A stretch of 63,402 nt of DNA from an uncultured Chlorobiaceae bacterium (lineage in GTDB: Bacteria > Bacteroidota > Chlorobiia > Chlorobiales > Chlorobiaceae): the NCBI GenBank assembly GCA_903824295.1, contig CAIJWE010000130.1:1-63402 (forward strand). The letters are read 5' to 3'. The position numbers and the translations under genes were made by a program. A model generated the notes under the pieces. It made no database searches. It saw nothing but the letters and a program-made list of their open reading frames with translations, and had not been told where the DNA came from. Of the stretch, positions 32,647 through 55,140 are shown piece by piece; the stretch's first letter is position 1; each line of letters begins with the position of its first letter.

Positions 32647-33663
32647 CTATGGAATCCTGAGAAGTCGGGTATTTGACAAAAATGCCTCAAGAAAAAGCAG
32701 CAGAAGCACGAGCAGCAAAAGCTGAAAAAACAATTCTGAACGATGCTCCATAACCGGTCCGGCAAACCTTTTTTTTTCAAGCCGATCTATCGCTCTGATC
32801 GTTTCATCAAATGCTGCCGGATCCTCAACCCTGAAATAGCCACCACCAGTCGTTCGGGCAATTCCCTGAAGCGACTCCTCATCTTTCTGCAAATGAGTAG
32901 TGCTCTCCCCGGATGGATCACGGCCTCCTGCTGCAACGTTAAAACCCGCATCGACGACATAAATTCTGATTCCACTACGGGCGGCAATCCCGGCAGCCGT
33001 GGCGGGCCCAATCTCGCCAGTATTATTTTCACCATCAGTAACAAGAATAAGTACCTTATGCAACGACTCCGATGCTTTGAGCCGGTTGACCGCGATAAGA
33101 ATCGCTGAACCAATTGCGGTACCGTCATCCTGTATTACCCCGGATGAAAGACGGTCAAGCAGCATGGCAAGAACATCATGATCAAGCGTCAACGGACACT
33201 GCGTATACCCCTTTCCCCGAAAGACCACAAGACCAATCCGGTCGTTCGAACGACGCAAAACAAAGCTGCGGGCAACTTCCCGGGCCGCATCAAGGCGGCT
33301 TTTACCGCCAAAATCAGCCTGAAGCATGGATTCCGAAATATCAAGCGCGAGCATCACGTCGATGCCCTTCGATTCGGCTTCCGTCTGACGAAAAAGAAAG
33401 TAAGGGCCCGTAAGCGCCAGAACAGAGAGCACAACAGCGCTCCACCGCAACCATTGCGGCAACTGACGCAACCAGAGACGAGCTTCAAAACCTGAATCCC
33501 GCAACCGCTCAAGAGCAGGAAAAAGGATCGCTGGAGCCCTGTCATGACGTTTCAGCCGAGCCCGTAACCAGACAGAAAAAGCAAAAAGCGGCAGCAGCAA
33601 CAGCCACCAGGGTTCCGTCATTCCAAAGCGAGGCATACGGGCAAACCACTCCAGCATGGGCAT
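32647..33663 (-). CDS. BatA-type von Willebrand A membrane protein
   Basis: A 338-residue protein: two N-terminal membrane segments, then a VWA domain with intact MIDAS (LDISESMLQADF) and TDGENNTGE, then a final hydrophobic segment at the C-terminus. Paralogous to the downstream BatB, it lies in a MoxR-linked cluster. The preceding 235-base gap (33664-33898) shows no gene I can support. Confidence 0.86.
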   Translation of the reverse strand: MPMLEWFARMPRFGMTEPWWLLLLPLFAFSVWLRARLKRHDRAPAILFPALERLRDSGFEARLWLRQLPQWLRWSAVVLSVLALTGPYFLFRQTEAESKGIDVMLALDISESMLQADFGGKSRLDAAREVARSFVLRRSNDRIGLVVFRGKGYTQCPLTLDHDVLAMLLDRLSSGVIQDDGTAIGSAILIAVNRLKASESLHKVLILVTDGENNTGEIGPATAAGIAARSGIRIYVVDAGFNVAAGGRDPSGESTTHLQKDEESLQGIARTTGGGYFRVEDPAAFDETIRAIDRLEKKRFAGPVMEHRSELFFQLLLLVLLLLFLEAFLSNTRLLRIP

Positions 33664-51425: not shown

Positions 51426-53108
51426 TCACGGCAGCCTGTTCAGCGCGCTGACCGTTGCCTTGATTGAGGCAAGGCTGATATTTGAATCAATCCCGGCACC
51501 AAAGGAGATCCGTCCATCGGCACAGCCAATCTTGATATAGGCTACGGCAAGCGCTCCGGCACTGCGCCCGATAGCATGTTCCGCATATTCGTCAACACTG
51601 AAATCGAGACCACTCTCCCTGACAAATCCCTTCACAAATGCATCAAGAGGACCATTCCCTTGTGCCTCAAAGCTGAACTCCCGCTCTCTGCTCTGCACAA
51701 CACAGGTTATGGTGGTATCCTCTTCATCTTGGCGCCGAGGCTCCTCGTCATCCCAACTGATATGGCACTTCTTAAGGGTAATCGGCTCCCGGATCTTCAC
51801 ATACTCTGCATGAAACAGTTCATGAATCTGCTCCACCGACAACTCGACACCGGTCGAGTCAGCAACGGCCTGGACAGCTTCAGCAAAATCAGGCTGCATC
51901 CATTTCGGTATCTGGATGCCATACTCTTTCTCAAGCACATAGGCCACACCACCTTTACCTGACTGGCTGTTGATACGAACAATCGCCTCATAGTTGCAAC
52001 CAACGTCCTCGGGGTCGATCGGCAAATAGGGAACCGCCCAGACACCTCCGGGTGAGAGCGGTTGCGCTTTCATTCCCTTGCTGATTGCATCCTGGTGTGA
52101 ACCGGAAAATGCTGTGTAGACCAGCTCACCCGAATAAGGGTGACGGGCATGAATATCCATGCGGGTACAACGGCGGTAGACTTCGCGAATCCTCGGTAGA
52201 TCCGAAAAATCAAGTTCAGGATCAATACCCTGAGTGAAGAGGTTCAGTGCCATAGTCACAACATCCATGTTACCACACCGCTCGCCATTGCCGAACAATG
52301 CCCCCTCAACCCTGTCTGCTCCGGCCATCAAAGCCAATTCAGCAGTCGCCACAGCCGTACCACGATCATTATGGGCATGAACGCTGATCAGAACCGCATC
52401 ACGCGCCTTAATGTTGCGGCAGAACCACTCAATCCGGTCGGCATACATATTCGGCGACGACATTTCAACCGTTGAGGGCAGATTCAAAATAATTTTGTCA
52501 TCCGCCGAGGCACCCCATGCATCCATCACCGCATGACAGACATCAAGCGCATAGTCGAGCTCCGTACCAGTAAAACTTTCCGGACTGTACTCGAAACGGA
52601 TAACGGCATCGCCGCACTCATCCTTGAGTCGACGAACAAGCGCGGTACCTTCTATAGCGATCGCCTTGATCTCCTCCCTGTTTTTACGAAAAACAACATC
52701 CCGCTGCAGCGTAGACGTCGAGTTGTAGAGATGCACGATGGCACGTTTCGCACCGCTTATGGAAGCAAATGTCTTGCGAATCAGATGCTCCCGCGCCTGG
52801 GTCAACACCTGGATCGTGACATCTTCAGGAATAAGGTGCTCCTCTATCAGTCTGCGCACAAATGCAAATTCCGTTGCAGAAGCGGAAGGAAAGCCCACCT
52901 CAATCTCCTTGAACCCGATGGATACAAGAAGCTGAAACATAGATACCTTTTCCTCAACACTCATCGGCACCGGCAGCGCCTGATTACCGTCACGAAGATC
53001 CACACTGCACCATATCGGTGCTTTCGTGATCCGTTTGTCGGGCCAGCTCCTTGCGGTAATGGCCACCGAAGGGTAGGCTGCGTACTTCTGATACTTCATC
53101 TTTTTCAT
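51426..53108 (-). CDS. leuA: 2-isopropylmalate synthase, long type
   Basis: A 560-residue enzyme of the type-2 (actinobacterial/yeast-like) class. The catalytic barrel starts KAPIWCSVDLRDGNQAL and contains VHAHNDRGTAVATAELA. The C-terminal regulatory domain (GPLDAFVKGFVRESGLDFSVDEYAEHA) is intact, so leucine feedback inhibition is likely. It condenses acetyl-CoA with 2-ketoisovalerate, the first committed step of leucine synthesis. It is preceded by a leucine leader-attenuator, a second level of control. Confidence 0.96.
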   Translation of the reverse strand: MKKMKYQKYAAYPSVAITARSWPDKRITKAPIWCSVDLRDGNQALPVPMSVEEKVSMFQLLVSIGFKEIEVGFPSASATEFAFVRRLIEEHLIPEDVTIQVLTQAREHLIRKTFASISGAKRAIVHLYNSTSTLQRDVVFRKNREEIKAIAIEGTALVRRLKDECGDAVIRFEYSPESFTGTELDYALDVCHAVMDAWGASADDKIILNLPSTVEMSSPNMYADRIEWFCRNIKARDAVLISVHAHNDRGTAVATAELALMAGADRVEGALFGNGERCGNMDVVTMALNLFTQGIDPELDFSDLPRIREVYRRCTRMDIHARHPYSGELVYTAFSGSHQDAISKGMKAQPLSPGGVWAVPYLPIDPEDVGCNYEAIVRINSQSGKGGVAYVLEKEYGIQIPKWMQPDFAEAVQAVADSTGVELSVEQIHELFHAEYVKIREPITLKKCHISWDDEEPRRQDEEDTTITCVVQSREREFSFEAQGNGPLDAFVKGFVRESGLDFSVDEYAEHAIGRSAGALAVAYIKIGCADGRISFGAGIDSNISLASIKATVSALNRLP

Positions 53109-53140: not shown

Positions 53141-53170
53141 AAAAAACCACCTACCCCAGGAGGGCGGCGG
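53141..53170 (-). terminator. Attenuator terminator before leuA
   Basis: On the minus strand CCGCC-G-CCC (53170 to 53162) pairs with GGG-TA-GGTGG (53156 to 53147) as a 5+3 stem with one G-T pair and a five-base loop, followed by six T (53146-53141) and then more T-rich DNA. It lies about 40 bases after the leader stop and about 30 before the leuA ATG. The loop-side CCCTCC can instead pair with the leader region (see findings). Confidence 0.85.
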
Positions 53171-53205
53171 CTTTATCAATGTTCTCTCTCTTGCTGAAAA
53201 ACGAA

Positions 53206-53292
53206 CTAAAAGACACCTCCCTCCGGAGCCACGCTGCTGAGAAGCAACAGGGCCAATGAGAGCAGGAGGTTATTCAGGTTCGTTGCACGCAT
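53206..53292 (-). CDS. Leucine leader peptide
   Basis: A 28-codon open frame on the minus strand starting ATG at 53292 and ending TAG. Nine codons are Leu, including runs at 9-11 and 15-18. It sits about 100 bases before leuA and is followed by a terminator hairpin, the classic layout of leucine attenuation leaders. A low supply of charged tRNA-Leu would stall the ribosome in this peptide. Confidence 0.86.
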   Translation of the reverse strand: MRATNLNNLLLSLALLLLSSVAPEGGVF

Positions 53293-53466: not shown

Positions 53467-55140
53467 TTAACGAGACGGGGTTGACCAGTTCCTTATAATC
53501 CGGAGAATTTCTTTTTTGCTCCTGGCTCGAAGCATCAGACTGCGCCACTGGCTGTCGGAAGCCATTTTGCTGATGGCACCCAGCAGTCTGATGTGACTGT
53601 TCGGGTCGAAAAAAGGTGAGAGTATCAGAAACATGATACGGGCAGTATTGCTGGATTCCTTGTCATAAATACCAATTTTATGAACCCCGATAACCATAAC
53701 CGGTTTCTTTAAATGGTCAAGTCGGGCATGAGGAATGGCGATCTCCTCCCCGATAAAGGTACCACCCTGTTTTTCCCTGGCAAGCAGACTGTTGAAAGCA
53801 CTGGTTTCGTCAATATCGGGATCAATGATGCAGCATTCGTGCAAAAGCTGGAGAATGGCATCTTCTTTTTCAACAACGCTCTCCCACAACACAACCCTTG
53901 CATTCCGGATCGGTTCCTGCCATGCATTGCAAGGCTGTTTTCCTGTCGGAATCGCCTCTCTTATGACTGAAAGATACTCTGTTAAAGGGTTTTGCGCCGG
54001 AAGGGCGACCTCTTCCCTCGTATCGAGCACAATCACGCTGATACCCCGGCACTGGCTGATCAATCGTTCAATAATGGTCTGATGCCCCTGGATGCGCTGC
54101 CAAAAAGGCAGTTTTCGTCCTGAATTACCAATGATAATGTGCCCTACCCGGTACTCTCTGGCAAACTGAAGAATAGTTTTAACCACATCATCTCCTTTGT
54201 AGGTAAATACCGTTGCACCAAGCTGCTGGGCCAGTGCAAGCGTATTGGAAAGCATTCGCTGTACCTTGGCATCAATATTGGTCGGACTGTCGGAAAGAGT
54301 CTGAACATAGACCGCATACCAGTTTCTGTTCAGGCGTCCTGCAATACGCGATGCATAGCGCAATATCGTTTCACAGTTCCGGGTTTTTGAACTGAGACAA
54401 ACCATCACCTGATCAGGATTGGAAGCCGATTCATCAGGAAGCTGGTTCCGGCGCTTCGAATCAAGCTGGGCGGCAAGTTCTCTTAACGTCAACTCCCGAA
54501 GCTGCTCAAGGTTTTCAGGCCTGAAAAAGTTTGAAAGAGCAGCTTCCGTTCGACCGGGAAGATAGACTTTTCCTTCACTCAATCGTTGCCTCAGATCATC
54601 GGCCGTGATATCGACATTGACAAGCTGATCGGCCAAAGCAAGCATCCGGTCTGGCACCCGCTCCTTGACCTTTACTCCGGTTGCATGCTCTACCGTCTCA
54701 TAAAGGCTTTCGATATGCTGGATGTTCAATGTCGAAATGACATGAATACCGGCAGCAAGAATTTCTTCGACATCCTCATACCGCTTGGAATTTCTGCTTC
54801 CGGGAACATTCGTATGTGCAAGTTCGTCGACAAGAACAACGGAAGGATTGCGCTGCAGAATCGCATCCATGTCCATTTCGGTAATTTCAATACCCCGGTA
54901 CAGAATGCTTTTACGCGCAATGATTTCGAGACCGGAAAGGAGCGCTTCCGTCTCTTTCCTCTGGTGAGTTTCCACAAGGCCGACAACAACATCAATACCA
55001 TTATCCTTAAGACGTCTTGCTTCCTGCAGCATCTGCCAGGTTTTCCCTACACCGGCGCAGTAGCCGACATAGATTTTAAGCTTTCCCTGTTGCGACTGCT
55101 GGATGAGACGCAAAAAACTGTCAGCCCGGTTGCTCTCCAT
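53467..55140 (-). CDS. Truncated KdpD sensor domain fused to a PTS EIIA domain
   Basis: A 557-residue soluble protein. Residues 1-220 form the KdpD N-terminal domain: GYCAGVGKTWQMLQEA (Walker A-like), VVLVDELAHTNVPGSRN, and STLNIQHIESL. Residues about 240-370 form a universal stress protein domain. Residues about 405-557 form an EIIA (fructose/Ntr-type) domain with the likely phosphorylatable His471 in IAIPHARLD. There are no membrane segments and no histidine kinase domain. E. coli KdpD carries those. It is the last gene of the kdp operon. Confidence 0.9.
   Translation of the reverse strand: MESNRADSFLRLIQQSQQGKLKIYVGYCAGVGKTWQMLQEARRLKDNGIDVVVGLVETHQRKETEALLSGLEIIARKSILYRGIEITEMDMDAILQRNPSVVLVDELAHTNVPGSRNSKRYEDVEEILAAGIHVISTLNIQHIESLYETVEHATGVKVKERVPDRMLALADQLVNVDITADDLRQRLSEGKVYLPGRTEAALSNFFRPENLEQLRELTLRELAAQLDSKRRNQLPDESASNPDQVMVCLSSKTRNCETILRYASRIAGRLNRNWYAVYVQTLSDSPTNIDAKVQRMLSNTLALAQQLGATVFTYKGDDVVKTILQFAREYRVGHIIIGNSGRKLPFWQRIQGHQTIIERLISQCRGISVIVLDTREEVALPAQNPLTEYLSVIREAIPTGKQPCNAWQEPIRNARVVLWESVVEKEDAILQLLHECCIIDPDIDETSAFNSLLAREKQGGTFIGEEIAIPHARLDHLKKPVMVIGVHKIGIYDKESSNTARIMFLILSPFFDPNSHIRLLGAISKMASDSQWRSLMLRARSKKEILRIIRNWSTPSR

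Follow-up and report, generated by a model that had tools for sequence, protein, structure and literature searches.

A leucine-rich leader ORF, an intrinsic terminator and a competing antiterminator lie directly upstream of leuA in an uncultured Chlorobiaceae bacterium, and we consider it highly likely that together they constitute a ribosome-mediated transcription attenuator of this gene. Leucine shortage very probably switches leuA on through the leader and its competing hairpins. The hallmarks of such an element were found as follows: a short ORF rich in the end product precedes a biosynthetic gene (9 of 28 codons are Leu, and a Leu-rich leader occurs in 71 of 75 upstream regions), a conserved intrinsic terminator (53174-53141) lies between this ORF and the gene, and a mutually exclusive antiterminator is present that is strong at equilibrium in the window and weaker in many relatives. 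What the analysis shows is that these components are present, that they exclude each other in folding models and that they are conserved. Coordinates refer to the window, which is the whole 63,402-nucleotide stretch of DNA that was analyzed (contig CAIJWE010000130.1), and leuA and the features described upstream of it are all on its minus strand.

Leader ORF, terminator and antiterminator upstream of leuA

The leader ORF, for which we propose the name leuL, occupies 53206-53292 and codes for MRATNLNNLLLSLALLLLSSVAPEGGVF followed by a UAG stop, an assignment based on the sequence and on family homologues. Its Leu codons are at positions 6, 9-11, 13 and 15-18, and thus the 28-codon frame with nine Leu codons and runs at 9-11 and 15-18 reported by the first-pass annotation is confirmed at 53292-53206. 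Codons 9-11 (CTC CTG CTC, 53260-53268) form the first Leu run and codons 15-18 (CTG TTG CTT CTC, 53239-53250) the main run, which is the proposed ribosome stall site; both runs are also evident in aligned leaders. The codon CUA is absent from the window's own leuL. Of the 697 ORFs in the window that start with ATG and span 15-45 codons (nested starts included), only two had at least 32% Leu together with two runs of at least three Leu, one being leuL directly before leuA and the other a small ORF at 32751 (-). The control that decides against a chance occurrence is the retention of the element across the family, described below.

A terminator scan and family pairing both locate an intrinsic terminator with a T run at 53141-53174 (approximately -18 kcal/mol), where the same annotation had placed one ahead of leuA. 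The stem, AAAGCCGCCGCCCU / GGGGU-A-GGUGGUUUU, spans 53174-53143 with the T run reaching 53141, and the leuA ATG (53108) is 32 nt beyond it. The 5' arm of this terminator has a second potential partner. Specifically, duplex folding of 53224-53209 with 53174-53159 gives a 14 bp antiterminator with two mismatches (GGAGGG-A-GGUG-U-CUUU : AAAG-C-CGCC-G-CCCUCC) and an energy of -22.4 kcal/mol. Its 5' half, segment 2 (GGAGGGAGGUGUCUUU, 53209-53224), corresponds to codons 23-28 of leuL, and its 3' half, segment 3 (AAAGCCGCCGCCCUCC, 53159-53174), is the terminator 5' arm plus the start of the loop; pair counts across relatives also support both halves. When the upstream partner was dinucleotide-shuffled 200 times, no shuffle paired equally well (z -3.7). 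Since the antiterminator takes up the entire terminator 5' arm, the two structures are mutually exclusive. The core GGAGGG:CCCUCC pairing had been recognized in the first-pass annotation and does exist, but its extent had been underestimated; likewise CCGGAGGG had been placed correctly at 53226-53219, though it covers codons 23-25 and not 22-25.

Two additional hairpins are predicted in the leader RNA. One covers the Leu run (GGCC...GGCU, 53227-53254) in both the MFE and centroid folds and resembles a 1:2-type protector, and in these same folds it is flanked by a CUCUC:GGAGGG pairing that hides segment 2. The other is a small GUUC...GAAC hairpin (53181-53206), supported by pair counts, that begins within the leuL stop codon and would make the antiterminator loop shorter.

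Effect of ribosome position on the predicted fold

We modeled the consequences of translation by removing the RNA covered by a ribosome, treating RNA from 13 nt past the first base of the A-site codon as free, and computing the probability that the terminator forms. In the window this probability is 0.15 with the A site on codon 8, stays within 0.00-0.17 over codons 9-17, climbs to 0.47 for codon 18 and 0.82 for codon 19, and lies at 0.91-0.94 between codon 20 and the stop codon (0.94 at the stop itself), while without a ribosome it is 0.91. In this model, therefore, stalling within the Leu run, and not beyond it, would block the terminator, which supports the earlier proposal that a stall at Leu codons 15-18 favors antitermination and a finished peptide favors termination. 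A ribosome with its A site on any of codons 1-4 also gives a low probability, and at the very start of the ORF the model is therefore not Leu-specific. Among 70 family sequences, 20 exhibit a strong equilibrium switch and 57 a difference in the right direction. In the remaining relatives the terminator wins at equilibrium, so that there the antiterminator would have to form before the terminator 3' arm is made.

From these folds we infer termination in vivo, ribosome stalling and a response to leucine along the following lines. RNA polymerase would start approximately 35-40 nt upstream of leuL. A shortage of charged Leu-tRNA would slow translation at codons 9-18 and leave 53224-53209 free to pair with the whole terminator 5' arm at 53174-53159, and formation of this antiterminator would preclude the terminator and allow leuA to be transcribed. 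When leucine is plentiful the ribosome would reach the UAG and cover 53224-53209, so that the terminator at 53174-53141 could fold and transcription would stop ahead of leuA. Should the leader not be translated at all, it would fold on itself and the terminator would be expected to form too.

Conservation, translation and transcription start of the leader

Among 75 distinct leuA upstream regions from Chlorobiaceae, which include both Chlorobium and Chlorobaculum, 71 have a Leu-rich leader, with a similar distance to the terminator across the family. Chlorobium leaders follow the pattern N-LLL-x-L-x-LLL...(R/E)GG(A/V)F, and Chlorobaculum leaders are shorter, as exemplified by MNTVNNMLLLTLSLTGLTCLRGSAL. 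In the first Leu run, the first two aligned columns hold Leu, encoded by various codons, in 57-58 of 71 leaders, and in the main run three of the four aligned columns hold Leu in 51-66 of about 71. At these kept positions five or six kinds of Leu codon occur, including CTG, CTT, CTC, CTA and TTG. The Leu run is thus retained in close and distant Chlorobiaceae while its codons change synonymously, indicating selection on the amino acid and hence on translation. There is also a marked choice of codon, as CUA makes up 14.8% of Leu codons in the leaders (77/520, distributed over 47 of the 71 leaders) as compared to 0.5% in the leuA coding sequences (13/2770). The Fisher p value for this enrichment is about 3e-50, which overstates the case since the sequences are related and not independent.

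A few relatives depart from this arrangement. The leader is missing in L050, L061, L021/L046 and L105, the latter two entries being cases in which a tRNA-Asn gene is found at the place of the leader (L046:2336-2408 and L105:2337-2409, two Chlorobium genomes) with the terminator still present immediately after it; in these genomes leuA might be transcribed by readthrough from the tRNA-Asn gene. In L073, L044, L024, L047, L051 and L052 the leader ORF ends approximately 15-20 nt sooner (for example LLLRALWL followed by a stop), and most of these early-stop relatives, including L073, L044, L024 and L047, keep the G-rich antiterminator RNA. The late Gly-rich leader codons are themselves segment 2, and an early stop with retention of this RNA sets the function of the peptide apart from that of the RNA.

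A family promoter-like motif, TTGCAN-N16-TAT(A/T)TT, makes it most likely that transcription begins ahead of the leader. The best sigma-70-like match ends approximately 36-50 nt before the leader ATG, mostly 41-50 nt, in 45 of 70 relatives. The putative promoter in the window is TTGTAT (53364-53359), a 16 nt spacer and TATTTT (53342-53337), which is weak when taken alone, draws on its position in the family, and is absent from the sigma-70 scan list at the stricter threshold of that scan. The kdp gene upstream, whose end is at 53467, has a terminator-like site behind it at 53448-53429 in the terminator scan, which argues for a separate promoter of the leuA leader transcript. This upstream gene (53467-55140) belongs to a kdp gene group and codes for a KdpD-like sensor without the kinase part, in which a PtsN/fructose-PTS IIA-like domain (about residues 416-550) follows the KdpD N-terminal half (residues 6-378). 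Finally, a Shine-Dalgarno-like sequence precedes leuA in 58 of 70 sequences and the leader ATG in only 1 of 70, so the efficiency of leader translation is uncertain.

Conservation of the RNA structures and alternative explanations

Pair counts over 50 sequences show that both hairpins are conserved and that their covariation is modest. The first-pass annotation had named loss of the Leu codons or of the hairpins in close relatives, or a transcription start downstream of the leader, as grounds for rejecting its proposal, and the family comparison speaks against each of these, for the start by sequence inference. In the terminator 92.7% of cells are paired, a value reached by 0 of 500 shuffles, and one pair is changed on both sides, from C-G to U-A, in eight sequences. 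For the antiterminator plus the small hairpin 85.5% of cells are paired and five pairs are changed on both sides, in 29 cells (2 of 500 shuffles as high), with the GUUC/GAAC hairpin alone having 90.5% of cells paired and a C-G to U-A change in four sequences. Paired cells and covariation scores for both structures are above nearly all shuffles and above all slid versions, and slid terminators and antiterminators have far less pairing. The covariation is modest because the count of pairs changed on both sides is no higher than in shuffles, and it is inflated by relatedness. Native 3:4 arms pair better than species-swapped arms, with no permutation as good, and native 2:3 arms also do so more weakly (0.3% of permutations as good). 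We used species swaps and pair counts for the family since segment 2 is G-rich by composition, which makes dinucleotide shuffles of it a weak comparison there; against such shuffles the antiterminator has a z of -3.7 in the window and a family mean of only -1.1.

We also built a covariance model from Chlorobium sequences and used it to search a phylum-wide sample of 198 genomes. One match upstream of leuA was obtained per genome in 44 of 44 Chlorobiaceae genomes, among them 14 Chlorobaculum-type genomes of a second genus that had been left out of model building, and the match positions coincide with where the leuA upstream regions lie in each of them. No convincing match was found in the 154 genomes outside of the Chlorobiaceae. 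The few other matches have E values of 7e-5 to 7e-4 per genome, which is about what chance would give for that many genomes, and weak second matches occur in G036 (E 1.3e-4) and, in a separate search, in G040 (E 5e-5). That separate search gave no match in relative G062, where a tRNA-Asn gene is in the place of the leader.

In one alternative, the terminator hairpin would simply act constitutively and in part, or would mark where an upstream transcript ends, while the ORF stays untranslated and leuA is expressed by leaky readthrough or from another promoter; the lack of a Shine-Dalgarno sequence at the leader and the tRNA-Asn genomes L046 and L105, which keep the terminator in the absence of a leader, would fit such an arrangement. 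We nevertheless regard it as improbable, since retention of Leu despite codon changes and the enrichment of CUA both need translation, nearly all relatives have a segment 2 capable of pairing along the full terminator 5' arm, and the upstream kdp gene has a terminator-like site of its own. Slightly less probable still is that leuA is controlled by a translation-level element or a non-ribosomal RNA sensor, such as a riboswitch or a protein-bound attenuator, to which the Leu-rich ORF would be secondary. Proteins or riboswitches do serve amino-acid genes in several bacteria, both the GUUC hairpin and segment 2 show conservation at the RNA level, and some relatives with an early ORF end keep the G-rich RNA. 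However, apart from tRNA there is no Rfam match at the gathering threshold in the window or its relatives, only non-significant matches are obtained for the leader region at E up to 10, the conserved feature is an ORF with Leu codons where ribosome stalling needs them, and the leuA start codon and Shine-Dalgarno sequence are outside of the hairpins. That the Leu-rich ORF arose by chance or is of a small membrane type, with no relation to leuA, as the similarly Leu-rich ORF at 32751 (-) could suggest, is already contradicted by its conservation before leuA in 71 of 75 regions at a similar distance to the terminator, and can be set aside as most improbable.

leuA, the branched-chain pathway and a second leader before ilvD

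The gene that the proposed attenuator would regulate, leuA (51426-53108), codes for a 2-isopropylmalate synthase of the long, 'yeast-type' form, whose scores against NCBIfam NF002991 (857 bits) and TIGR00970 (732 bits) both exceed the cut-off. Within the sampled phylum this type is found in Chlorobiaceae only. This leuA is distinct from the leuA of the ilv-leu operon. Specifically, the window's genome also has an ilvD-ilvB-ilvN-ilvC-leuB-leuA1-leuC-leuD cluster in which leuA1 is of the ordinary bacterial type (TIGR00973). The two loci of Chlorobaculum type that were examined (L249, L251) and one from Chlorobium (L250) have no leuA1 at this place; only a homologue of approximately 28% identity is present after leuD, so that the attenuated long leuA is probably the sole such enzyme there. 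In the window's genome (L247:7744-12123) a 1166-aa PAS-histidine-kinase-like gene and a formylglycine-enzyme-like gene are located between ilvB and ilvN, and in relatives L248 and L252 ilvB and ilvN are likewise approximately 3 kb apart.

Across the Chlorobiaceae ilvD is likewise preceded by a leader ORF, of approximately 46-60 codons with an Ile/Val/Leu-rich 3' end (L247:3500-3853 on G000:C38; also L255-L284, L249, L285 and L286). Over 29 loci the last 20 codons are 51% Ile/Val/Leu as compared to 10% in the rest, a richness that looks reduced in the window's own genome. The same leader is present in two more distant members of the order, which by their taxonomic position would be Chloroherpetonaceae. 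Conserved CCCAAGUCC and GGCUUCGGG segments that are able to pair with each other follow the leader, and a weak terminator-like hairpin is also found downstream, making this sequence a second candidate attenuator, for the ilv-leu operon. It supports the view that leader peptides are used for the whole branch with codons fitting each operon. Upstream of trpE, pheA and hisG in the same genomes we saw no conserved Trp, Phe or His leader, and this, together with the Ile/Val/Leu-rich ilvD leader, is a specificity control in favor of the leuA attenuator.

Relation to known leucine attenuators

Leader-peptide attenuators are textbook regulators in Proteobacteria, were predicted in Actinobacteria and were later found in Firmicutes. 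The enterobacterial leuL of the Salmonella and E. coli leuLABCD operons resembles the Chlorobiaceae leader in having approximately 28 codons with a Leu run, in serving the same pathway step and in having an antiterminator that overlaps the terminator. Gly codons late in the ORF are also common to both. In contrast to leuL, the Chlorobiaceae leader controls a stand-alone long-type leuA and not leuABCD, its antiterminator extends to the leader stop codon, it lacks a Shine-Dalgarno sequence, and in the window it contains no CUA. It also differs in having no match to Rfam RF00512 (Leu_leader), either in the window at the gathering threshold or in the leader region at E up to 10, and searches of the same scope gave no T-box match. 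An Rfam match to TD-1, at E 0.07 and with 24 bits where the cut-off is 64.5, was rejected.

The enrichment of rare CUA control codons in Chlorobiaceae leaders is shared with the leu attenuator of S. typhimurium, where replacing CUA by CUG lowers sensitivity (Carter et al., 1986, as described in PMC1183508). Leader-peptide control of leuA has been predicted in Actinobacteria by comparative genomics (Seliverstov et al., 2005, PMC1262725); this is a different phylum. In Staphylococcus aureus a Leu-rich attenuator peptide is described as controlling the ilv-leu operon (PMC5794164), an example of such a peptide on branched-chain amino acid genes outside of Proteobacteria, although that system as described involves a whole branched-chain operon and belongs to a Firmicute in which CodY is used as well, whereas the Chlorobiaceae leader serves leuA alone. 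Naville and Gautheret (2010, PMC2965389) noted that no leader-peptide system had been shown beyond Proteobacteria and Actinobacteria before their Firmicutes cases, and a survey that included Chlorobiales suggested a gamma-proteobacterial origin with few transfers for the Rfam amino-acid attenuators (Sun et al., 2013, PMC3766115). The first-pass annotation had supposed that a Chlorobi version may be undescribed, and our full-text literature search indeed returned no paper on leu attenuation in Chlorobi, with the qualification that Lopatovskaya et al. (2010, 10.1134/S0026893310010164), which was outside of that search, may mention Chlorobi. The mechanism is thus of a classic class, ribosome-mediated attenuation, and the Chlorobiaceae leuA element is new and lineage-specific within the searched literature.

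The nearest leuA genes from outside the family (Elusimicrobia L095, Omnitrophota L098 and gamma-proteobacteria L102-L104, L106 and L108-L110) lack a convincing Leu-rich leader upstream, and a joint transfer of leader and gene from these is therefore not supported. We lean slightly toward the view that Chlorobiaceae evolved their own branched-chain attenuation, consisting of a leuA leader without a Shine-Dalgarno sequence and an older, longer Ile/Val/Leu ilvD leader shared with Chloroherpetonaceae, in which case the leuA leader would be a convergent copy of the enterobacterial solution that includes its CUA control codons. The presence of a Leu attenuator throughout this family of green sulfur bacteria, with the rare codon chosen in the same way, bears on the question of spread versus repeated origin, and the more than 70 distinct sequences provide material for a curated RNA family.
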